A stretch of DNA of 29,712 bases from a virus, in the IMG/VR virus record IMGVR_UViG_3300036719_000234, positions 1 through 29,712 of that record, one strand, 5' to 3'. The position numbers and the translations under genes were made by a program. The first letter of the stretch is position 1. Each line of letters opens with the position of its first letter. Under the pieces are notes generated by a model, which saw only the letters and a program-made list of their open reading frames with translations, ran no database searches and had not been told where the DNA came from. Below, piece after piece: positions 20,917-29,586 of the stretch.

Positions 20917-21442
20917 AGATGATCTAGTAAAACATCTTGATCAAGTCAACATTGTTGTCAGTGAGTACTTAAAAGGTAATGACCCTACAGTTATTTCAAA
21001 AGAACTAGACATTCCACGAACTCGTGTTGTCTCTTTAATTAATGAGTGGAAGGTCATGGCTTCTGCTAATGATGCTATTCGTGCCCGTGCAAAAGAAGCA
21101 CTTGCTGCAATGGATGCACACTATGCAAGGCTAATTGGAAAGTCTTATGAAGTTATTGATGAAGCCTCTATGACTAATAACCTTAGTGCAAAAACTGCAG
21201 CAATTAAACTTGTTATGGATATTGAGTCTAAAAGAATTGATATGCTACAAAAGGCGGGTCTTCTTGAGAATAAAGAACTTGCAGAAGAGATGGTTGAGAT
21301 TGAACGCCGTCAAGAAGTTCTTGTTGGGATCCTAAGAGATATTGCTTCTGAGCATCCAGAAGTTCGTGATATTATTATGCAACGCCTTTCTGCTATTGCT
21401 AAAGAAGGGGAAGTGATTACAGTTGTCCACGATGTTCAATGA
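20906..21442 (+). CDS. Probable terminase small subunit
   Basis: A 178-aa protein just before the large terminase gene and overlapping it. Residues ~15-50 form an HTH-like domain (VVSEYLKGNDPTVISKELDI, then PRTRVVSLINEWK), followed by a long helical region (AIRARAKEALAAMDAHYARL ... LENKELAEEMVEIERRQEVL) suited to oligomerisation. This fits a small terminase that recognises packaging sites and forms a ring. GAGGG precedes the ATG. The assignment rests on HTH plus position; an HTH regulator is the alternative. Confidence 0.7.
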   Translation: MSTEDDLVKHLDQVNIVVSEYLKGNDPTVISKELDIPRTRVVSLINEWKVMASANDAIRARAKEALAAMDAHYARLIGKSYEVIDEASMTNNLSAKTAAIKLVMDIESKRIDMLQKAGLLENKELAEEMVEIERRQEVLVGILRDIASEHPEVRDIIMQRLSAIAKEGEVITVVHDVQ

Positions 21443-23207
21443 GTTCCTTGAAGTACTAAAGGAAAATCATTTTATTGAAAAGCCTGTTGACGCAAAAACA
21501 TTTGTTGAGTCTCCAGACTATCTTGGACAGCCACAACTTTCAGATATTCAGTATCAAATTGTTGAGGCAATGAGTCAGATTTATCGCAAAGAAGATCTTA
21601 TAGATATTATGGGGGATTCTGGAGAAGCATACTTTAACAAGTACACTAAGAACGAAATCATTCTGCAACTTGGCAAGGGATCTGGAAAAGACTTCGTATC
21701 AACAGTAGCCTGTGCATATACAGTATATAAACTACTATGCCTTAAAGATCCAGCAGTGTACTATGGCAAGCCAGCAGGAGATGCTATTGATATTATTAAC
21801 GTGGCTATTAACGCTCAACAGGCTAAGAATGTTTTCTTTAAAGGTTTTAAGTCTAAGATTGAAAGATCCCCCTGGTTTGCTGGAAAGTATAATGCTAAGG
21901 CAGATTCAATTGATTTTGATAAATCTGTCACTGTTTATTCTGGCCACTCAGAACGTGAATCACACGAAGGTTTGAACTTGTTTATGGCAGTCCTTGATGA
22001 GATCTCTGGCTTTGCATCAGAGGTTGGAACTGGAAATGAGCAGGGCAAGACTGCTGAAAATATCTATAAAGCATTTCGTGGTACGGTAGACTCCCGTTTT
22101 CCTGACCTTGGAAAGGTAGTTCTTCTATCATTCCCCCGTTATCAAGGTGACTTTATTTCACAAAGATATGAATCAGTCATTGCTGAAAAAGAAACCATTG
22201 AGCGCAAGCATACTTTTATTATGAATCCAGATTTGCCACACGAAGATCCAGGGAATAGGTTTGAAATTTCTTGGGATGAAGACACCATTCTTTCATACAA
22301 AATTCCAAGGGTGTTAGCATTTAAAAAACCAACTTGGGAAGTAAACCCTACGAGAAAGATTGATGACTTTAAGATTGCTTTTTACACAGACCTTGCAGAT
22401 GCAATGATGCGCTTTGCCTGTATGCCTACGTATGCATCAGATGCATTTTTTAAGGATAGAACTAAACTAGAAAAAGTTATGACACTAAGAAATCCTCTAG
22501 ACCAGTTTAGAAGGTTTGATGAGTCATTTAAACCAGACCCAGATAAAGTTTATTACATCCACGCTGACCTTGCACAAAAGCACGATAAGTGTGCAGTTGC
22601 AATTTCTCACGTAGATAAGTGGGTAAACATTCAGGTAATTAAAGACTATGAACAAGTGGCCCCAATGGTAGTAGTAGATGCTGTTGCTTGGTGGGAGCCA
22701 AGAGCAGAAGGACCTGTAAACTTATCTGATGTTAAAAACTGGATCATTAACCTTCGCAGAGAAGGCTTTAACATAGGTATGGTTTCTTTTGACCGTTGGC
22801 AGTCTTTTGATATTCAGAATGAATTGCAAGCGGTAGGAATAAGAACTGAAACAGTTTCTGTTGCAAAAAAACACTATGAAGATTTAGCAATGATGATATA
22901 CGAAGAGCGTGTAGCAATTCCTATGATCCCAATATTGCTAGAAGAAATGTCTGAGTTAAAGATAATGAAAGGTAATCGTGTAGATCACCCTAGAAAAAAA
23001 TCTAAAGACTTGGCAGATGCTTTGGCTGGATCAGTATTTGGGGCAATATCACATACCCCAAAGACTACTAATACAGTCATTGAAGTACACACTTGGTCTT
23101 CGTCTTCTGCTCAACTTGCAGAGAAACGTAGATCTATGGTAGAATTAGAACCTAAGCAAATGACGGACGATGTTCGTGATTTCTTAGACAAATTCAATCT
23201 AATATAG
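21423..23207 (+). CDS. terL: Terminase large subunit
   Basis: A 591-594-aa packaging ATPase/nuclease. TTG 21423 and ATG 21432 are both possible starts; neither has an ideally spaced ribosome site (GAAGGGGAAG at 21404-21412 is nearer the TTG). The ATPase carries Walker A GKGSGKD (~84-90) and Walker B LFMAVLDE (~187-194). The RNase H-like nuclease half has acidic residues in YYIHADLAQKHDKCA, GMVSFDRWQSFD and KSKDLADALAGS. It cuts concatemeric DNA and pumps it into proheads. The large size and sequence type suggest a headful or cos enzyme of actinophage kind. No portal gene follows directly, which is unusual. Confidence 0.93.
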   Translation: MSTMFNEFLEVLKENHFIEKPVDAKTFVESPDYLGQPQLSDIQYQIVEAMSQIYRKEDLIDIMGDSGEAYFNKYTKNEIILQLGKGSGKDFVSTVACAYTVYKLLCLKDPAVYYGKPAGDAIDIINVAINAQQAKNVFFKGFKSKIERSPWFAGKYNAKADSIDFDKSVTVYSGHSERESHEGLNLFMAVLDEISGFASEVGTGNEQGKTAENIYKAFRGTVDSRFPDLGKVVLLSFPRYQGDFISQRYESVIAEKETIERKHTFIMNPDLPHEDPGNRFEISWDEDTILSYKIPRVLAFKKPTWEVNPTRKIDDFKIAFYTDLADAMMRFACMPTYASDAFFKDRTKLEKVMTLRNPLDQFRRFDESFKPDPDKVYYIHADLAQKHDKCAVAISHVDKWVNIQVIKDYEQVAPMVVVDAVAWWEPRAEGPVNLSDVKNWIINLRREGFNIGMVSFDRWQSFDIQNELQAVGIRTETVSVAKKHYEDLAMMIYEERVAIPMIPILLEEMSELKIMKGNRVDHPRKKSKDLADALAGSVFGAISHTPKTTNTVIEVHTWSSSSAQLAEKRRSMVELEPKQMTDDVRDFLDKFNLI

Positions 23208-23250: not shown

Positions 23251-24957
23251 ATGAATTCATTTAAGAAAATTGCCCTAGGACTCGCTGCAGCAATGTCCTT
23301 TGGCGTTATGTCAGCACTTCCGACAAGTGCTGCTGTAATTGCACCAGCACTAACGATTGACTCTGCTACAGATACAATCACTGCAGGTGAGACTGCTACA
23401 GCAGTAGTAACATTGTCATTTATTTCAGAAACAGCAGCAGACACAGCAACGGTGCTATCTGCTATTTTTGCACAGCCATCAGGCTCATCAAAGAGTGCAA
23501 CACTCTCATTGCTTGAAACAACAACCTCTGTAGTTACAATTGCAGCAGGAAGCCTTTCAGCAGATGTTAACTCAACAGTTGGAACACCAGGATATGTAAC
23601 TGCAAAGTTTACAGTTTCATTGGTAGCACCAACAGTTGCGGGTACATACGAAGCACGTATTCTTACAACTCGTCCAGCAACAGGTCCATCAGTTGCGTGG
23701 ACAGTAACAGTTAAAGCAGCAGATGTTACACCTTCTGCAGCAACAACAACATCAATTCTTAACTCTGGCGAAGTAACAACTGCAACAGCAGATGCCACAG
23801 TTTATGCACCAAAGGCTACTTCAGCAGATGCAGCAGCGGTAATCGTTGTTACACCTAAGAATGCAGCAGGCGGAGCAGCAACTGAGTCAATTCTTGCAAC
23901 AGTTTCAGGAACAGGTATGATTGGTTATGGCACAAATGCTACAACTATGACTGCTCTTGGTCGCTCAGTAGTTATTCCAACAGGAAATTACATTGGTGTA
24001 TTTGCTGACGGTACAGCAGGAGTATCAACAATTACTCTTACAACCCTTACAGGTGCAGTTCTTGCAACTGAGAAGGTAACATTCTACGGAGATATTGCAT
24101 CTATCGTAGCAACAGCAGTCAAGCCTGTTATTGCAACAGGATCAAATGCTTCAACAATTAAGGCAGTGGCATATGATGCTGCTGGAGTAACAGTTGGAGC
24201 AGGAACACTCAATGCTTTCTCAAGCGATGTTTCAGTGGTATCCGATTCAGGAACTGCAGCAACAATCGTAAATGGTGAAGCAGTGTTCACTCTTACAGGA
24301 GTCAAGACAGGCGGAGTCGCTGTAACTGTTAAGTCAGGTACAGTATCATCTGCTCCAGTTTCTACTCGTGTAGAGGGAACTGCAGCAACTGTTAAGTTGT
24401 CATTTGATAAGGAAGTTTATCTTCCAGGAGAAGCAGCAACTATCACAGTTCAGGTTCTTGATGCAGCAGGTCTTCCAGTATCTGGAAAGACACACGCTAA
24501 CCTATTTGCTACAGGTGGAATTGTTCCTAACTATGCATTTGGATCATCATCTGATGTACTAACTGCAACATCAGTTACAACAGATACATCAACTGCTAAG
24601 TCATACAAGGTATTTATGCCTTTGGCTGAAAACGTTGTTAAGATCTCAGCAACAGGTGGAACTTCACTTCCACTTGCTGGACAGGTTGTAGTAACAGCAT
24701 CAGCAGAAGTTTCTAACGCAGCAACAAAGGCTGCTACAAAGGCTTCTGAAGAGGCAGCAAAGGCAGCCCAGGCTGCTACAGATGCAGCGATTGCTGCTTC
24801 AAAGGCTGCAGATGCTGCTACAGTACAGGCACAGGCTGCAGTTGATGCAGTTGCTAAGTTGTCTGCAGATGTATCTGCACTAATTGCTTCACTTAAGAAG
24901 CAAATCACAGCACTAACCGCTTTGGTCGTAAAGATCCAAAAAAAGGTTAAGGCTTAA
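23251..24957 (+). CDS. Secreted S-layer-like surface protein
   Basis: A 568-aa protein with AAGGAG before its ATG. It has a Sec signal peptide (MNSFKKIALGLAAAMSFGVM, cleavage after PTSA near residue 27) and then an Ala/Thr/Val-rich beta body lacking Cys and nearly lacking Trp, with Ig-like invasin-type repeats (KLSFDKEVYLPGEAATITVQ then VLDAAGLPVSGKTH). Residues ~490-550 are an Ala-rich coiled coil (ASEEAAKAAQAATDAAIAAS) and the C terminus is amphipathic and basic (ALVVKIQKKVKA). This is the make-up of abundant cell-surface (S-layer-like) proteins of planktonic actinobacteria, from memory. Codon use is GCA-rich, as if for high expression. In a phage it probably alters the host envelope or was captured from a host. 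Followed by a strong terminator. Confidence 0.7.
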   Translation: MNSFKKIALGLAAAMSFGVMSALPTSAAVIAPALTIDSATDTITAGETATAVVTLSFISETAADTATVLSAIFAQPSGSSKSATLSLLETTTSVVTIAAGSLSADVNSTVGTPGYVTAKFTVSLVAPTVAGTYEARILTTRPATGPSVAWTVTVKAADVTPSAATTTSILNSGEVTTATADATVYAPKATSADAAAVIVVTPKNAAGGAATESILATVSGTGMIGYGTNATTMTALGRSVVIPTGNYIGVFADGTAGVSTITLTTLTGAVLATEKVTFYGDIASIVATAVKPVIATGSNASTIKAVAYDAAGVTVGAGTLNAFSSDVSVVSDSGTAATIVNGEAVFTLTGVKTGGVAVTVKSGTVSSAPVSTRVEGTAATVKLSFDKEVYLPGEAATITVQVLDAAGLPVSGKTHANLFATGGIVPNYAFGSSSDVLTATSVTTDTSTAKSYKVFMPLAENVVKISATGGTSLPLAGQVVVTASAEVSNAATKAATKASEEAAKAAQAATDAAIAASKAADAATVQAQAAVDAVAKLSADVSALIASLKKQITALTALVVKIQKKVKA

Positions 24958-24973
24958 TTAGTCCAACAATTAA

Positions 24974-25004
24974 GGGGGTTAGCCAAGTGCTAGCCCTCTT
25001 TTTT
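24974..25004 (+). terminator. Rho-independent terminator
   Basis: A 10-bp stem (24974-24983 with 24989-24998, two G-U pairs) closes a CAAGT loop and is followed by six T (24999-25004). It lies 17 bases after the S-layer-like gene stop and is the only clear intrinsic terminator in the window, isolating that gene from the next unit. Confidence 0.9.
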
Positions 25005-25016
25005 GTACCTAAAAAA

Positions 25017-25025
25017 TGATATAAT
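25017..25025 (+). promoter_or_regulatory. Extended -10 promoter (TGATATAAT)
   Basis: TGA-TATAAT follows the terminator and gives a +1 near 25032, with a ~38-base leader before the PA14 gene. There is no convincing -35. Its place between terminator and gene makes it a likely promoter. Confidence 0.6.
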
Positions 25026-25069
25026 AGCCTTAATAGTCATATCACCACTACGACTATAAGGAGTTAAGT

Positions 25070-27247
25070 ATTAAAAAGTTATTGAGAGTAGCATTGGTCT
25101 TATCCCTTGCTCTATTTCCCCTGCTTTTAATAATTGATAAAGCCCACGCAGCAGAAGGTTTAACTGCTCAGGTCTATAATGTACTAGGACAAAATGGTTC
25201 TCCCTACATACCCCAGGGAGCCTCTCCAGTCGTCACTACTAATGTACCCAACATTGACTTTCAGTGGGGTTCTGGGAGTGTCTTAGGTGGCCCTTCAGAG
25301 GATGTTATTGTGCGCTTTACAGGGTCAATTAGAAGTGATTCTACTCAAGAAATATCGTTTTTAGCAACAGCAGACGATGGAACAAGACTGTATATTGATG
25401 GAGTCTTAGTAGCAGATGACTGGCGTGATAAAGGCGGTGGAGGTACTATTAGTGACCCAATATCATTTACAGCAGGTGTTCCAAAAACAATAGAATTAAT
25501 GTATTATGAAAATGGCGGGGGAGCAAATGTATTCCTTCATTGGGATCAGTCTGGATCTATGGATATTATTCCAGCATCAGCATTTACTTCACAATCAGCA
25601 CCAGTAGTAAAAACAATAGGACCTCCAAGAAATTTAACTATTATTAGTGGAGAAACCTCAACAATATTAAACTGGGAAGCACCCGACACTGGTAACACAC
25701 AACCAGAAAGATATGCAATTAGTTTTAATTGTACTGGGTGCAATGGCTGGGGAATTGCTACTGGAAATGTTGGCGGACCAAATTCTTTAAATACAACAAT
25801 TACAATTGACCATTCCTTGCTAGATGGTCTTATGCCAGCAGGAACAGTATGGTCATTTCATATTAGATCAGATAACGATACCTTCTCCCTTTACTCTGCA
25901 AATTCAAATGTTGTTACTGGTTCTACATATGTAGCCCCTGCTCCAGAACCTACACCTACACCAGAACCTACACCTAGCGAAACATCAACTGTAACATCTG
26001 AAACATCAACTGCAACAACGCCTACACCAGAGCCATCACCTATTCCAACACCAACACCCGAAACAACAACTGTAACAACACCCAGCGAAACTACAACGGT
26101 TACAACTCCTACAGAAACAACAACTGTAACAACGCCTGCGCCTAGTGAAACAACAACTGTGACAATACCAACTGGGCCAACTGAAGCAGAAATTGCTGCA
26201 ACAACTGCAGCACAAGCAGCAGCACAGCAAGCAGAAGCAGCAAGAATACAGGCAGAAACAGCAGCATTGATTGCAGCCCAAGCAGCAGCAGCCCAAGCAG
26301 AGGCTGAAAGAATTGCAGCACTTCAAGCAGCACAAGAAGCAGAAAGAATTAAAGCAGAATTGGAACTAAAAGAAAAGGCTGACCGTGAAGCAGCAGAGAT
26401 TGAAGCAGCAAGAATTCAAGCAGAGATAGAAGCCCAAGAAGAAGCAGATCGCATTGCAGCAGAACTTAAAGAAGCAGAAGAAAAAGCAGAAGCAGAAGCA
26501 AAGGCAGAGGCTGAACGCATAGAGGCAGAGCGCATAGCGGAAGAAGAAAGACTTGCAGAAGAAGCAAAGGCAGAGGCTGAGCGTATAGCAGCAGAAGAAG
26601 AGGCTATCGCAGAAGCAAAGGCAAAGGCAGAGGCTGAGGCACTTGCAGAAGAAGAAAGAATTGCGGAAGAAGCAGAGGCAAAAGAATTAGAAGAAGAAAA
26701 GACTGCTGAAGAAGAAGCAAAAGCAGAAGAAGAAGAATTAAAAGAAATAATTGCAGATGCTAAAGACGGAAAAGAATTAACTGAAGAACAAACAGAAATT
26801 GTAGTGGCAGCATTGATAGAAAATCTTAAGCCAGGAGAATCTATTTCTGCAGCAGAAGTTCAGGCATCTGGAGTATCTTATGCAGATCTTCCAGCAGAGA
26901 CACCAATTGAAATTCGTACAGATGAAAATGGAAATGCATTAATTATTACAGCAGAGGTTGCTGCAAATGTAGAATTGGTTCAAGATCCAGGGGCACTGTT
27001 AGAAGCAGTTTTCACTGATCCAGGAGCAGCCTTAGCAGCCTTTGGAAGTATCGGTGCAGATATGACTGAAGAAGAAAGAGAAGAAGCAACAGACATGGTT
27101 GTGGCTACAGTAGTAGCAACAGGAGCAGCGATTAACGCAGCAGCAGTTGCAGCAGGAGGAGCAGCAGGAGGCTCTGGTGGTGGAGGAAGTTCTGGTGGAG
27201 GCTCAGGCAGCAATTCACCAGGTTCAAGAGGAGGAAGAAAATGGTAA
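25070..27247 (+). CDS. Secreted PA14 / FnIII / coiled-coil surface protein (probable ATT start)
   Basis: Read from ATT 25070, this is a 725-aa exported protein. AAGGAG (25058-25063) sits six bases before that ATT; the first standard codon in frame, TTG 25082, is 18 bases away and would remove the basic MKKLLR end of the signal peptide. Cleavage is expected after AHA (~27). Then come a PA14 domain (~30-170; FLATADDGTRLYIDGVLVAD, FLHWDQSG), an FnIII domain (~180-290) with CTGC, a Pro/Thr linker with repeated ETTTVTTP units (~295-370), a long Ala/Glu/Lys coiled coil (~370-560) and a C-terminal domain with a small hydrophobic helix and Gly/Ser tail ending GGRKW. PA14 binds glycans. It is probably anchored at or spans the envelope. 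Confidence 0.75.
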   Translation: MKKLLRVALVLSLALFPLLLIIDKAHAAEGLTAQVYNVLGQNGSPYIPQGASPVVTTNVPNIDFQWGSGSVLGGPSEDVIVRFTGSIRSDSTQEISFLATADDGTRLYIDGVLVADDWRDKGGGGTISDPISFTAGVPKTIELMYYENGGGANVFLHWDQSGSMDIIPASAFTSQSAPVVKTIGPPRNLTIISGETSTILNWEAPDTGNTQPERYAISFNCTGCNGWGIATGNVGGPNSLNTTITIDHSLLDGLMPAGTVWSFHIRSDNDTFSLYSANSNVVTGSTYVAPAPEPTPTPEPTPSETSTVTSETSTATTPTPEPSPIPTPTPETTTVTTPSETTTVTTPTETTTVTTPAPSETTTVTIPTGPTEAEIAATTAAQAAAQQAEAARIQAETAALIAAQAAAAQAEAERIAALQAAQEAERIKAELELKEKADREAAEIEAARIQAEIEAQEEADRIAAELKEAEEKAEAEAKAEAERIEAERIAEEERLAEEAKAEAERIAAEEEAIAEAKAKAEAEALAEEERIAEEAEAKELEEEKTAEEEAKAEEEELKEIIADAKDGKELTEEQTEIVVAALIENLKPGESISAAEVQASGVSYADLPAETPIEIRTDENGNALIITAEVAANVELVQDPGALLEAVFTDPGAALAAFGSIGADMTEEEREEATDMVVATVVATGAAINAAAVAAGGAAGGSGGGGSSGGGSGSNSPGSRGGRKW
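25942..26170 (+). repeat. Pro/Thr linker repeats
   Basis: Degenerate tandem units encode the linker of the PA14 protein: two close copies of a CCAGAACCTACACCTA unit, followed by several copies of GAAACAACAACTGTAACAAC with variable PT spacers. Copies differ at synonymous sites, so the array is not a recent slippage product. Such tracts often vary in unit number. Confidence 0.75.
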
Positions 27248-27420
27248 GAGTAATAAAAAATATAATGAAAGACCTAGTAGATCAGGCATGGACTCTTCTT
27301 GGAATGTTTATTGCCTGGGTTGTATTAGATGGTAGTGCAAAAACAATAGTTGGCTATGGAATCATGGCTACATTAGCACTTTGGATTATAACTAGTCCTA
27401 TTAGAAATAGAGAGGAGTAA
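27241..27420 (+). CDS. Two-helix small membrane protein (59 aa), holin candidate
   Basis: A 59-aa gene (ATG 27241) overlapping the PA14 gene's end by seven bases (ATGGTAA). It has a basic N terminus (MVRVIKNIMK), two hydrophobic helices (TLLGMFIAWVVL, then IVGYGIMATLALWIIT) joined by a short turn, and a charged end (RNREE). Two short TM segments and gene pairing with the next membrane protein fit a holin/antiholin pair. No endolysin lies nearby, so the holin role is inferred only. It could also be a partner for the exported proteins. Confidence 0.7.
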   Translation: MVRVIKNIMKDLVDQAWTLLGMFIAWVVLDGSAKTIVGYGIMATLALWIITSPIRNREE

Positions 27421-27422
27421 AC

Positions 27423-27722
27423 ATGAACAGTATTACAAATATTTGGAATATATTGATGCGTATTGTTGCAGTCTTTGCAGCAAATGCCCTTGCAGTTATT
27501 GGTGCAGGAGCAATTGCAGGAATCTCAGTAGCAAAAGCAATGACAGTTGCAGGCCTTAGCGCAGTAGCAGTAGTTGTTGAGAAGTTGGCTCGTGCATTTA
27601 TGGATGACGGTAGACTCACAAGAGATGAGATTAATGCAGCATTTTCCACCACAGACAAGAATGCAAAAACTGTGCAGGATGAAGCAGTTGAAAAACGCAG
27701 ATCAAAATCAAAGACAGTATAA
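27423..27722 (+). CDS. Putative holin-like membrane protein
   Basis: A 99-aa protein with GAGGAG before ATG 27423. It has one or two hydrophobic stretches (IVAVFAANALAVIGAGAIAG, then AMTVAGLSAVAVVV), with helix-breaking Gly, then a charged cytoplasmic-like C terminus (DDGRLTRDEINAAF ... EKRRSKSKTV). The DGRLTRDEINAAF segment resembles helical ends of actinophage holins. It lies directly behind another small membrane protein gene. Confidence in a membrane role is good, in holin function moderate. Confidence 0.6.
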   Translation: MNSITNIWNILMRIVAVFAANALAVIGAGAIAGISVAKAMTVAGLSAVAVVVEKLARAFMDDGRLTRDEINAAFSTTDKNAKTVQDEAVEKRRSKSKTV

Positions 27723-27742
27723 CTAAACATATTTGACCCTGT

Positions 27743-27771
27743 TTGACAGCCCCTCCTAGGGGTGGTATACT
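27743..27771 (+). promoter_or_regulatory. Consensus sigma70 promoter with palindrome in the spacer
   Basis: TTGACA (27743-27748), a 17-base spacer and TATACT (27766-27771) with an extended TGG (27763-27765). +1 is near 27778. The spacer holds CCCCT-CCT-AGGGG (27750-27762), a perfect 5-bp inverted repeat that could be an operator. It reads into the HslV-like gene, whose GGAGGGG site lies at 27788-27794. Confidence 0.85.
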
Positions 27772-27801
27772 TAAATATATCGCTTTGGGAGGGGTTTCTG
27801 C

Positions 27802-28332
27802 ATGACTTGTATTGCAGTCGTTCGTGATGAAATAAACAATAAGATCTTTATGGCTGGTGATCGTGGTGCTTCAGATGATGGTACTATTCTAGCACTTGAT
27901 GCACCAAAGGTTTGGAAGTCTGGCCCATACCTTATTGGGTATGCAGGATCAATGGATGGCGAAAGAATTAGATACAACTTTCATCCGACTGCTCCAACAG
28001 TTAAAGATACAGATAAGTTTATGCAAACCAAATTTATTAAAGAACTTAAAGAATTTTATAATGATTTCTGGGTAGACACTTCCAAAGACGGAGATCTTGG
28101 TTTGATTATCTGTATCCGTGGTCAAATCTATGAACACAGTTCTGCAGATATGTCTTTATCTAAATACACACTTCCATACCTTGCAATGGGGTCTGGTGCA
28201 GAATATGCTTATGGGGTTTTGTACGCAACAGATAAGCAGAAAAATGCAAGAAATCGTGTAATTTCAGCGGTATCAGCAGCAATTAAATTTAATCCATCTT
28301 GTATGGGTCCAGTTGACGTAGTAAGTGTTTAG
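27802..28332 (+). CDS. HslV/proteasome-beta-like Ntn hydrolase
   Basis: A 176-aa protein, the same length as bacterial HslV. It starts MT, so Met removal would expose catalytic Thr1. The other proteasome-fold landmarks fit (numbered from Thr1): Asp19 in FMAGDRGAS, Lys35 in DAPKVWKSG, the GYAGSMD turn near 45-51, Ser130 in AMGSGAEYAYGVLYA, and a C-terminal strand with GPVDVVSV. Such enzymes cut peptide bonds inside a closed chamber and normally need an unfolding ATPase (HslU, Mpa). None is encoded here. It has its own consensus promoter and strong ribosome site. The cytoplasmic target might be host regulators or phage head precursors. Confidence 0.8.
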   Translation: MTCIAVVRDEINNKIFMAGDRGASDDGTILALDAPKVWKSGPYLIGYAGSMDGERIRYNFHPTAPTVKDTDKFMQTKFIKELKEFYNDFWVDTSKDGDLGLIICIRGQIYEHSSADMSLSKYTLPYLAMGSGAEYAYGVLYATDKQKNARNRVISAVSAAIKFNPSCMGPVDVVSV

Positions 28333-28341
28333 GGGTATACT
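28313..28341 (+). promoter_or_regulatory. Promoter for a leaderless transcript
   Basis: TTGACG (28313-28318), a 17-base spacer, TATACT (28336-28341). The expected +1, seven bases past the -10, is 28348, exactly the A of the next ATG. The -35 lies inside the end of the HslV-like gene. No ribosome site precedes that ATG. Confidence 0.75.
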
Positions 28342-28347
28342 TGTAAT

Positions 28348-28539
28348 ATGCATAAAGAAGATGATATAGAAGATGCAGAATTTGGTATCTGGTTAACAAG
28401 TGGTATTGAGCGGGGATGGATCTCAGACCCATACTGCAATACCCATGATGGTGGATACGAATATATGGATGAAGAAGAAAAACAAGAATGGGATGACGGT
28501 GGCGACCCATGTTGTCATGTAGTCCGTCTAATGATATAA
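28348..28539 (+). CDS. Small acidic conserved protein
   Basis: A 63-aa acidic protein (IWLTSGIERGWISDPYCNTH, DGGYEYMDEEEKQEWDDGGD, PCCHVVRL). The spaced Cys/His (CNTH, CCH) could bind a metal. From memory, similar short proteins with the GW-x-S-x-P-x-C-x-THDG and DPC-x-x-VVR patterns occur in actinobacteria and their phages, with no known role. There is no Shine-Dalgarno site; a promoter places +1 on the ATG, suggesting leaderless translation, which is common in actinobacteria. Confidence 0.7.
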   Translation: MHKEDDIEDAEFGIWLTSGIERGWISDPYCNTHDGGYEYMDEEEKQEWDDGGDPCCHVVRLMI

Positions 28540-28540
28540 G
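28512..28540 (+). promoter_or_regulatory. Candidate promoter overlapping a ribosome site
   Basis: TTGTCA (28512-28517), a 17-base spacer, TATAAG (28535-28540) with extended TGA. The -10 shares bases with the AAGGAG ribosome site (28538-28543) of the protease gene. Start would be near 28547, giving a leaderless mRNA for ATG 28548; the ribosome site would serve read-through mRNA. Confidence 0.45.
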
Positions 28541-28547
28541 GAGAAAA

Positions 28548-29351
28548 ATGAAAAAAATAGCAGTAGGGTTCGTAGCAGTAATCTTTTCAACAATGTTTCT
28601 AATGCCTTCACAAGCAGCAACTCCAAAGGCTTTAGTAATCATTGATTCATACTTTGATTCAAAGGTATACAATGCAGATGTAACTTGTATTACACTTGCA
28701 AATACAACATGTACAGATGTTGTAACAACACAAACTTCCTCACTTTCAAGTGAGATTAATCATGGAAATGCTATGGCTGAAGTTGCCAAGAAGCAAAATC
28801 AATCGCTATCAATTATTTTGTTGAGAGCAACAACCCCATCGTCAAAAACAGTTAATCCAGTAAATGCTGGAAATTTTATTGATGCTCTAAACTGGGTAAA
28901 CGCAAACTCCTCAAAAGTTGGAGCAGTTTCACTCTCACGATACTTTAATGGAAACAAGGCATGCTCTCCAGCAGCCGTCAACACTGCGCCATATGGTGGA
29001 GTTCGTGGAGCAGACAATACTATTCGCACTTTGATTTCTACGCTAAACTCAAAGGGTATTCCAGTATTTGTTTCAACTGGTAACAAGATGGGTGCAAAGG
29101 TTGACTATCCAGCATGCATTACAGACACAGTTTCTGTTAGCACTGGTGGAAGAAACTCACAAGGCAATATTGTTAGCGTTAACGCATTTGACATTAACAC
29201 TGATTACTTTGCTTCATCTGAAGTTGTAAGTTACACCTCAAATGTTTTTGGGCTAATCCCACAAACAACATCATCTGCTACCGTAGCAGTTGCTGCACAA
29301 TGGCTATCAACTGGAAATCTTTTAGACAAGGTTGTTCCAGTTAATAAGTAG
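28548..29351 (+). CDS. Secreted subtilisin-like (S8) serine protease
   Basis: A 267-aa protein from ATG 28548 (five bases after AAGGAG); ATG 28509 in frame would bury the signal peptide. The signal peptide MKKIAVGFVAVIFSTMFLMP-SQA is cleaved near residue 23. The subtilase triad is readable in order: D33 in ALVIIDSYFDS, H72 in INHGNAMAEVA, oxyanion N179 in PVFVSTGNK, and S242 in TTSSATVAVAAQW, which aligns with the GTSMATPHVA block of subtilisins. There is no propeptide, unlike bacterial secreted subtilases, and the GTS Gly is replaced by Thr. Two or four Cys may form disulfides (C47/C55, C139/C190). Probable location is outside the membrane or on the surface. It may trim surface proteins. Confidence 0.75.
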   Translation: MKKIAVGFVAVIFSTMFLMPSQAATPKALVIIDSYFDSKVYNADVTCITLANTTCTDVVTTQTSSLSSEINHGNAMAEVAKKQNQSLSIILLRATTPSSKTVNPVNAGNFIDALNWVNANSSKVGAVSLSRYFNGNKACSPAAVNTAPYGGVRGADNTIRTLISTLNSKGIPVFVSTGNKMGAKVDYPACITDTVSVSTGGRNSQGNIVSVNAFDINTDYFASSEVVSYTSNVFGLIPQTTSSATVAVAAQWLSTGNLLDKVVPVNK

Positions 29352-29358
29352 TAGGTTT

Positions 29359-29434
29359 TGGTCTGTAACTCAGTTGGTAGAGTGGCGAACTGTTAATTCG
29401 CAAGTCGTAGGATCGAGGCCTACCAGACCAGCCA
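29359..29434 (+). tRNA. tRNA-Asn (GTT), CCA encoded
   Basis: Acceptor TGGTCTG pairs with CAGACCA; D loop AGTTGGTA; anticodon stem GCGAA/TTCGC around CTGTTAA (anticodon GTT); T arm GTAGG/CCTAC. The discriminator G is followed by CCA. The T loop begins with A instead of T (position 54). It decodes AAC/AAU. Confidence 0.95.
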
Positions 29435-29435
29435 A

Positions 29436-29508
29436 GTCTCCATCGTCTAGGGGCCTAGGACGTTGCCCTTTCACGGCAGTAGCACGGGTTCAAATCCCGT
29501 TGGAGACA
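29436..29508 (+). tRNA. tRNA-Glu (TTC), CCA not encoded
   Basis: Acceptor GTCTCCA pairs with TGGAGAC; anticodon stem TTGCC/GGCAG (one T-G pair) around CTTTCAC (anticodon TTC); T arm ACGGG-TTCAAAT-CCCGT. Discriminator A is followed by CAA, so CCA must be added. It begins two bases after tRNA-Asn. It decodes GAA/GAG; GAA dominates in the coiled-coil genes here. Confidence 0.95.
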
Positions 29509-29512
29509 CAAT

Positions 29513-29586
29513 GCGGATATTGCATAGTGATAGTGCGTAACCTTGCCAAGGTTAATGTGCGGGTTTGATTCCCGCTATCCGCTCCA
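29513..29586 (+). tRNA. tRNA-Gly (GCC), CCA encoded
   Basis: Acceptor GCGGATA pairs with TATCCGC; D stem GCAT/GTGC with loop AGTGATA; anticodon stem TAACC/GGTTA around TTGCCAA (anticodon GCC); T arm GCGGG-TTTGATT-CCCGC; discriminator T then CCA. Position 19 is A and position 56 is T, a paired change of the usual G19-C56. Confidence 0.93.

Follow-up and report, generated by a model that had tools for sequence, protein, structure and literature searches.

A gene for a homologue of a host-order surface protein has very probably been exchanged repeatedly into one slot of phage genomes, behind the gene of the terminase large subunit (TerL). We examined this gene in a stretch of 29,712 nucleotides from the IMG/VR virus record IMGVR_UViG_3300036719_000234 (positions 1 to 29,712; hereafter the window), where it opens a set of seven genes at positions 23,251–29,351. 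The set codes for a secreted surface-layer (S-layer)-like protein with immunoglobulin (Ig)-like domains (SLP), a PA14-domain protein (ASP), two small membrane proteins (tm59 and tm99), an HslV-like protein, a small acidic protein (ac63) and a secreted subtilase (Sub). The source is a tailed freshwater phage whose TerL is 53.8% identical to that of Streptomyces phage Genie2 (Stanwilliamsviridae). A sequence-only reading of the window had proposed that these genes form an envelope-directed cassette.

SLP homologues in a small-genome actinobacterial order

A profile built from 12 phage SLPs matched 81 of 296 genomes of one actinobacterial order (the order of G428; probably Nanopelagicales), with E values down to 9e-114. 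By hand count, near full-length matches were found in 38 of the 296 genomes, the others being partial or confined to the coiled coil. The order of G011, which belongs to the same class, gave one weak coiled-coil match in 297 genomes. Genomes of the host order measure about 0.8–2.2 Mb, and rhodopsin is present in the genomes through which the order was reached. The window SLP was 42% identical to that of host-order L402 over 618 alignment columns, and 52 of 79 phage SLPs had a blastp match to 34 SLPs of the host order. In the host loci inspected, its 5' neighbour codes for a protein carrying sigma-70 regions 2 and 4 (Pfam, 2/2 tested) and its 3' neighbour for an O-antigen ligase (Wzy_C, 1/1 tested), with sugar-nucleotide dehydrogenase and epimerase-like genes nearby; several of the genomes with this locus are single contigs. 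The arrangement sigma-70, SLP and O-antigen ligase, seen in L427 (3512–8698) and other host-order loci, is a possible phage-receptor locus.

The phage copies were nested among these chromosomal homologues. In a FastTree phylogeny of 59 sequences, reduced from 113 by leaving out 27 short phage SLPs and sequences more than 90% identical, the phage SLPs occupied four supported places among the host alleles. The main phage clade comprised 20 members including the window (support 1.0), while L276 and L296 grouped with host L412 (1.0), L299 with L440/L441 (0.995) and L078 with L424/L425 (0.934). The SLP of L068 had no supported position, and L299, L078 and L068 form long branches. The SLPs of phage L276 and host L412 share 63% protein identity, and their DNA matches at 73.7% over ~1.7 kb, beginning past the signal peptide and ending at the gene end. 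Because phage SLPs stand at several places of the tree and because of this DNA match, alleles very probably crossed between host and phage repeatedly and entered the same slot; the phage copies keep a phage-type signal peptide. A viral scan with an alignment of host-type SLPs gave 28 stretches, none of them confirmed, and no viral SLP with a host signal peptide was seen. SLP and the subtilase had no match among annotated phage genomes, and a literature search found no paper joining S-layer with Nanopelagic.

The window SLP had been described as an S-layer-like protein with a signal peptide. We recognized the signal peptide by eye, and the predicted model (mean pLDDT 75, pTM 0.55) shows beta domains arranged in a row and, at the C-terminus, a single helix of 78 residues. 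The beta domains are Ig-like by fold comparison of the model, which makes SLP a putative secreted multi-domain protein of Ig-like fold; tandem Ig-like domains are also found in the Bacillales S-layer proteins SbsC, SbsB, Sap and EA1. The best S-layer fold match of an SLP domain was SbsC (Z 11.8, root mean square deviation 2.7 Å, 92 residues, 25% identity), and the sequence profile matched SbsC (4uj7) at E = 0.056, which is a hint only. In other phages the slot is occupied by a shorter second type of SLP (type 2; model pLDDT 67, Ig-like with a helix), the profile of which had two strong matches among the 296 host-order genomes.

Linkage and variation of the cassette genes

Gene order in the window runs from tail, replication and terminase genes through the cassette to three tRNA genes. 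All open reading frames (ORFs) of the sequence-only reading lay at the places it had given, and the tRNA genes follow at 29359–29586. The features are:

21423–23207, + strand: TerL (PHROG 2, 1.4e-15), anchor gene 5' of the cassette
23251–24957, + strand: SLP, putative secreted Ig-like surface protein, 568 residues, homologous to a protein found in the probable host order
24972–25000, + strand: intrinsic terminator after SLP, 12-pair stem and T tail
25017–25025, + strand: TGATATAAT, extended −10 promoter for ASP (PA14 gene); TGNTATAAT conserved among relatives
25070–27247, + strand: ASP, PA14 protein (PF07691); probable ATT start at 25070, TTG 25082 in the ORF list
27241–27420, + strand: tm59, small membrane protein; its gene overlaps the 3' end of the ASP gene and adjoins it in relatives
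27423–27722, + strand: tm99, small membrane protein, possible holin, replaceable (PHROG 26427, PHROG 443)
27743–27771, + strand: sigma-70 type promoter of HslV, TTGACA-17-TATACT, conserved in relatives
27802–28332, + strand: HslV/proteasome-like N-terminal nucleophile (Ntn) hydrolase, 176 residues, no signal peptide seen (PHROG 1040, PDB 5ovu)
28313–28341, + strand: sigma-70 type promoter of ac63 and subtilase, TTGACG-17-TATACT, conserved in relatives
28348–28539, + strand: ac63, small acidic protein; adjoins the subtilase in relatives
28551–29351, + strand: Sub, putative secreted subtilase, 266 residues from the probable start (subtilisin profile, catalytic residues)
29359–29586, + strand: tRNA Asn, Glu and Gly (ARAGORN), which bound the cassette on the right in the window

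Third-position GC content is 0.19–0.20 in the SLP and PA14 genes (23251–27247) and 0.30 in TerL; the overall GC content of the SLP and PA14 genes is 0.44.

The cassette is real and tightly linked. TerL loci were the best 80 of at least 600 viral contigs, with an identity of at least 83%, and 68 of the 72 loci having at least 300 nt downstream contained an ORF start with an SLP-type signal peptide ≤260 nt 3' of TerL. In the sufficiently long loci, tm59 and HslV were each present in 20/20, ac63 in 16/16, tm99 in 9/20 and the subtilase in 8/16, always in constant order; the profiles of tm59, tm99 and ac63 were built from sequences including the counted loci, and these counts hold partly by construction. 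In surveys starting from other genes, TerL stood directly 5' of SLP in 72/77 loci (from SLP), tm59 adjoined ASP in 46/46 (from ASP), and ac63 adjoined the subtilase in 62/62, with HslV within 2.5 kb in 58/62 (from the subtilase). On the rearranged contigs L180, L187 and L224, SLP has moved behind HslV and still lies near the set. The fixed order that the sequence-only reading had asked for in related phages was thus observed, with few rearranged contigs and a subtilase present in half of the long loci, and the genes stay together instead of being scattered.

Variation was compared with TerL identity in 700 sampled pairs of 1953, which are non-independent, and identity was expressed per shorter protein, a measure that gives ~0.25 for unrelated proteins. 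For the 21 of these pairs with TerL identity of ≥95%, median identities were 0.75 for SLP (range 0.28–1.0), 0.46 for ASP and 0.41 for Sub, and 0.89 for HslV, 0.89 for tm59 and 0.90 for ac63. The correlation with TerL identity was low for all cassette genes (−0.05 to 0.35), and therefore the whole cassette region recombines. The median ratio of non-synonymous to synonymous substitutions (dN/dS) was 0.285 for SLP, 0.241 for ASP and 0.257 for Sub (22 pairs only), compared to 0.097 for TerL, 0.111 for tm59 and 0.096 for HslV. By these measures, the three predicted exported proteins are hypervariable and swapped, and their neighbours much less so.

Proteins and promoters of the cassette

ASP had been read as an exported protein with PA14, fibronectin type III (FnIII) and coiled-coil parts. 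The PA14 domain was found above the Pfam cut-off (PF07691, 2.3e-8), and, judged by eye, the protein has a signal peptide, a head that varies, a stalk rich in Thr and Pro, a coiled coil and, at its C-terminus, a hydrophobic stretch; for G005 detection was by script. The FnIII part was not named by Pfam (best match Tissue_fac, 0.0056, below the cut-off); the FnIII-like segment 179–279 is a 48% match to phage DSL-LC01. ASP is predicted to be anchored in the membrane and to span the wall, and it is not host-like. Its heads vary between phages, and tm59 and the ASP C-terminus persist, the latter in most proteins of the slot. A genome scan found generic PA14 domains of 28–41% identity in many phyla (best 80 of 179 matches), and a host derivation of the head was rejected as unsupported, with matches in 5 of 296 host-order genomes. 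Some PA14 matches were in the single-cell assemblies L322 and L326, labelled Pelagibacteraceae; that in L326 is a 2003-residue protein of Ig-like repeats. ASP probably starts at ATT 25070, 12 nt (25070–25081) before the TTG 25082 of the ORF list. For 63 distinct upstream regions, a Shine-Dalgarno rule chose ATT in 30, TTG in 10, CTG in 3, ATC in 2, ATG in 1 and no start in 17. ATT is a very rare start codon; other lineages have a TTG followed by a sequence similar to KKLLR.

The small protein tm99 matched PHROG 26427, annotated as nuclease (9.7e-25), and the holin family PHROG 443 (0.01). Five tm99 homologues also matched PHROG 443 weakly (0.0028 to 0.23), the match to PHROG 26427 being the stronger. 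The nuclease annotation was not adopted, as tm99 is a two-helix membrane protein of 99 residues with no match to a Pfam nuclease family. Phage DSL-LC01 also has a short match to tm99. In some relatives (L025, 11404–11962; L063, 6627–7439) its place is taken by a small lipoprotein that weakly matches a spanin family (PHROG 456, 0.0087), a transmembrane protein of PHROG 25359 and, in L063, a DUF2061 protein.

Both predicted proteases of the sequence-only reading were confirmed at the family level. The HslV-like protein matched PHROG 1040 (9.4e-21) and Pfam Proteasome only at 0.029, and its family profile matched PDB 5ovu (3.7e-6); it resembles the beta-proteobacterial proteasome homologue. T2, the nucleophile after Met, and K36 were invariant in 10/10 sequences and D20 was kept in 9/10 (E in L299), residues which we take to be the active site of the HslV/proteasome type. 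The window subtilase alone had no Peptidase_S8 match in Pfam, whereas its family profile matched subtilisins (PDB 1q5p, 5.1e-14) and the homologue L031 matched Peptidase_S8 (1.3e-14). Regarding the catalytic triad and the oxyanion Asn, D32 and H71 were found in 71/71 and N178 and S241 in 70/71 phage sequences, a count that leaves out L100, L101 and L107, where a stop codon lies inside the subtilase match and the gene may be broken. The catalytic residues were also present in 10/10 host rows (one gene counted twice). Subtilase homologues occurred in 25 of 296 host-order genomes, one of them at position 980,872 of a single-contig genome, and in the subtilase tree host and phage copies were partly intermixed with moderate support. 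Most homologous ORFs begin at the position corresponding to 28551, which is probably the corrected start in the window.

The sequence-only reading had also listed at least four candidate promoters and a terminator. A scan of the window alone was at chance level (15 promoter-like sites with 16.8 expected, 7 terminator-like sites with 5.9 expected), but comparison across relatives supports three promoters (ASP, HslV and ac63) and the terminator; the shuffled controls keep base composition only, and the sequences compared are related. A terminator-like site after SLP was present in 67/68 distinct relatives versus 5% of shuffles, and TGNTATAAT in 59/60 distinct gaps between SLP and ASP versus 1% of shuffles. 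A promoter of the type TTGACA-17/18-TATACT with at least 10/12 matches preceded HslV in 92/98 distinct relatives versus 48/1960 shuffles (2.4%), and, by the same threshold, ac63 in 74/97 versus 3.8% of shuffles. A −35/−10 promoter before ASP was rejected (2/60, below shuffles). Before SLP such a promoter was found in 17/74 versus 4.9% of shuffles, and SLP is probably read together with terL. It was rare elsewhere: before tm59 0/91, tm99 1/57, Sub 2/64 and TerL 1/124. Because of the terminator after SLP and the separate promoters, the seven genes form several transcription units. The sequence-only reading had treated them as one cassette; tm99, with the downstream endolysin of G005, may belong to lysis.

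The TGNTATAAT motif was enriched on the coding strand in three long relatives (20, 21 and 18 sites versus ~4–6 in shuffles) and not on the other strand. The ten genes behind TGNTATAAT-type sites in G005 include one endolysin, two to three with tail or head matches (some weak), one with an Ig-domain match and one with an endonuclease VII match, and because of the genes behind such sites we infer that the promoter is late-type. G001, G008 and G005 show two promoter classes: TGNTATAAT sites lie on the coding strand in the neighbourhood of genes for structure and lysis, whereas those of TTGACA-17/18-TATACT type lie near replication genes and small opposite-strand genes.

Possible functions at the surface of infected cells

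Envelope remodelling, as proposed by the sequence-only reading, received strong indirect support from the host-order homologues of SLP and the subtilase and from the fast change of the exported-looking proteins. Our leading account, to which we assign a chance approaching even, is that the cassette serves to replace the outer surface of infected cells, the benefit being either superinfection exclusion or the avoidance of progeny loss on spent cells. A surface change appears to be the best account because three exported hypervariable proteins, two of them with host-order homologues, stand amid conserved cytoplasmic and membrane genes. SLP would be exported during infection and join or replace the host's own coat, the subtilase would trim host surface proteins (the host SLP or another receptor), and ASP, held by a stalk that crosses the wall, would be displayed late. 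On this altered surface neither rival phages nor the progeny of the phage itself would find their receptor; the infected cell would be closed to superinfection, and infected cells and debris would not use up virions. Selection by rival phages and host alleles would then favour constant change, but in the exported parts only. More tentatively, the slot between terL and the terminator-promoter block may serve a "coat conversion" in a family of freshwater phages, in which host surface-layer alleles are repeatedly recruited behind a phage signal peptide and let each phage lineage give its infected cells a foreign coat while the subtilase removes the old one.

Several results weigh against this account. 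Adhesins (FdeC, invasin) and many non-S-layer Ig-like proteins matched the SLP model at Z values similar to that of SbsC, and Ig-like folds are common. Pfam found no SLH, CWB2 or other known wall-binding domain in SLP at E values up to 1; for this reason we call the protein no more than S-layer-like. That no SLH-type domain was found also sets SLP apart from the Bacillales S-layer proteins. Twenty-seven of the 79 phage SLPs, the short type 2, had no blastp match to the 34 host SLPs, the PA14 head had the few host-order matches given above, and the subtilase was missing from 8 of the 16 long TerL loci. The dN/dS values of the exported genes are well below 1, with no sign of positive selection. 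When 84,980 species were scanned with the SLP alignment, 385 stretches matched a pattern and no relative was confirmed, because the patterns rest on the phage signal peptide; host homologues were then sought by profile searches of whole genomes. Finally, the name Nanopelagicales for the host order is one that we infer.

The phage SLP gene is truly homologous to a gene of the host, evolves under purifying selection and has been re-acquired from hosts. This would also suit a phage that maintains the coat, supplying a continuously needed host coat protein during host-gene shut-off and keeping a slowly infected cell intact, as psbA does by analogy in cyanophages. We regard coat maintenance as quite unlikely, since it leaves unexplained the type-2 SLPs without close host relatives, the PA14 protein, the protease and the swapping between near-identical phages. 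Slightly more probable, though still unlikely, is a lysis or release module, in which tm99 would be the holin, ASP and tm59 would act late on the envelope, the subtilase would strip the coat for virion exit and SLP would be accessory. The weak holin match of tm99 (PHROG 443, 0.01), the spanin-like lipoprotein in its place in some relatives (PHROG 456, 0.0087), the extended −10 promoter type shared by ASP and the endolysins of G005, G008 and G001, and the endolysin ~1 kb beyond ac63 in G005 are consistent with such a module. However, tm99 is missing from 11/20 long loci, the subtilase has an early-type promoter and forms its own unit, hypervariability is not needed for lysis proteins, and the homology of SLP to a host coat protein would be left unexplained.

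The promoter type of ASP also precedes several tail-like genes, Ig-like and PA14 domains are known in virion proteins, and one capsid chain was among the SLP fold matches. SLP and ASP might thus decorate the particle, for example as fibres, with incidental signal peptides. The export signals on three proteins, the host chromosomal homologues of the same architecture and the close linkage between ASP and tm59, a small membrane protein, make this the least probable of the readings. Aggregation is hardly more probable; here, phage surface proteins would tie infected to uninfected cells ("sibling capture"), an idea published for pelagiphage curli (PMC7029224, PMC9599517; seen in part). In Pelagibacter phage HTVC008M the curli genes are immediately followed by one for a PA14 protein, but Pfam found no curli gene in the cassette, and the available passages on the related Melnitz report no clumping (PMC9004378).

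Replacement of the host coat, as favoured here, has partial precedents. The porin genes of Escherichia coli phage PA-2 (lc) and NmpC replace a receptor-type surface protein of the host with a phage version; the likeness lies in the phage-made version of a host surface protein, whereas the PA-2 product is an unrelated outer-membrane porin in a lysogenic setting. The statement of the sequence-only reading that no system with this set has been described needs a limit, as an S-layer-type protein of Melnitz (PMC9004378) and pelagiphage curli (PMC7029224, PMC9599517) have, according to the parts of these papers available, already been published. Gene_23 of methylophage Melnitz codes for a putative S-layer-type protein postulated to alter host receptors and stop superinfection, and by this description it resembles SLP as a phage-encoded S-layer-type protein with a proposed exclusion role (PMC9004378, available passages). 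Melnitz differs in being T4-like with a Gram-negative host, and Gene_23 is a single annotation; the available passages report no host homologue, repeated capture or cassette (PMC9004378). Pelagiphages carry curli (type VIII secretion) surface-fibre genes (PMC7029224, PMC9599517), which, in the parts of these papers available, share with the cassette a phage-encoded surface structure, a streamlined planktonic host and, in HTVC008M, an adjacent PA14 protein. Those are outer-membrane pore and amyloid genes, absent from the host according to the same parts, whereas the main gene of the cassette has host-order homologues; no Pfam match to CsgG or CsgF was found among eight proteins of the cassette region. 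The PA14-domain protein behind the curli genes of HTVC008M (L302, 4757–9158) is annotated only as hypothetical, and this pairing is an independent parallel.

DSL-LC01, which shares the FnIII-like ASP segment and the short tm99 match with the window phage, is a lake phage from a metagenome assembly with Actinomycetia as predicted host (PMC10611076, as far as the source was available). The first cultured Nanopelagicales phages are ~39 kb in size, and streamlined freshwater actinobacteria are very abundant, with a microdiversity attributed to phage predation (PMC10202952, available parts). If their phages carry and swap a host surface-protein gene, the surface diversity of these hosts would have a concrete viral vehicle, and it would become possible to test how superinfection is controlled when slow cells are infected lytically. 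The sigma-70, SLP and O-antigen ligase locus is indicated as a likely phage-receptor locus of the host. Should coat conversion be true, phages would help to generate surface diversity in one of the most abundant groups of freshwater bacteria and would also act as its reservoir.

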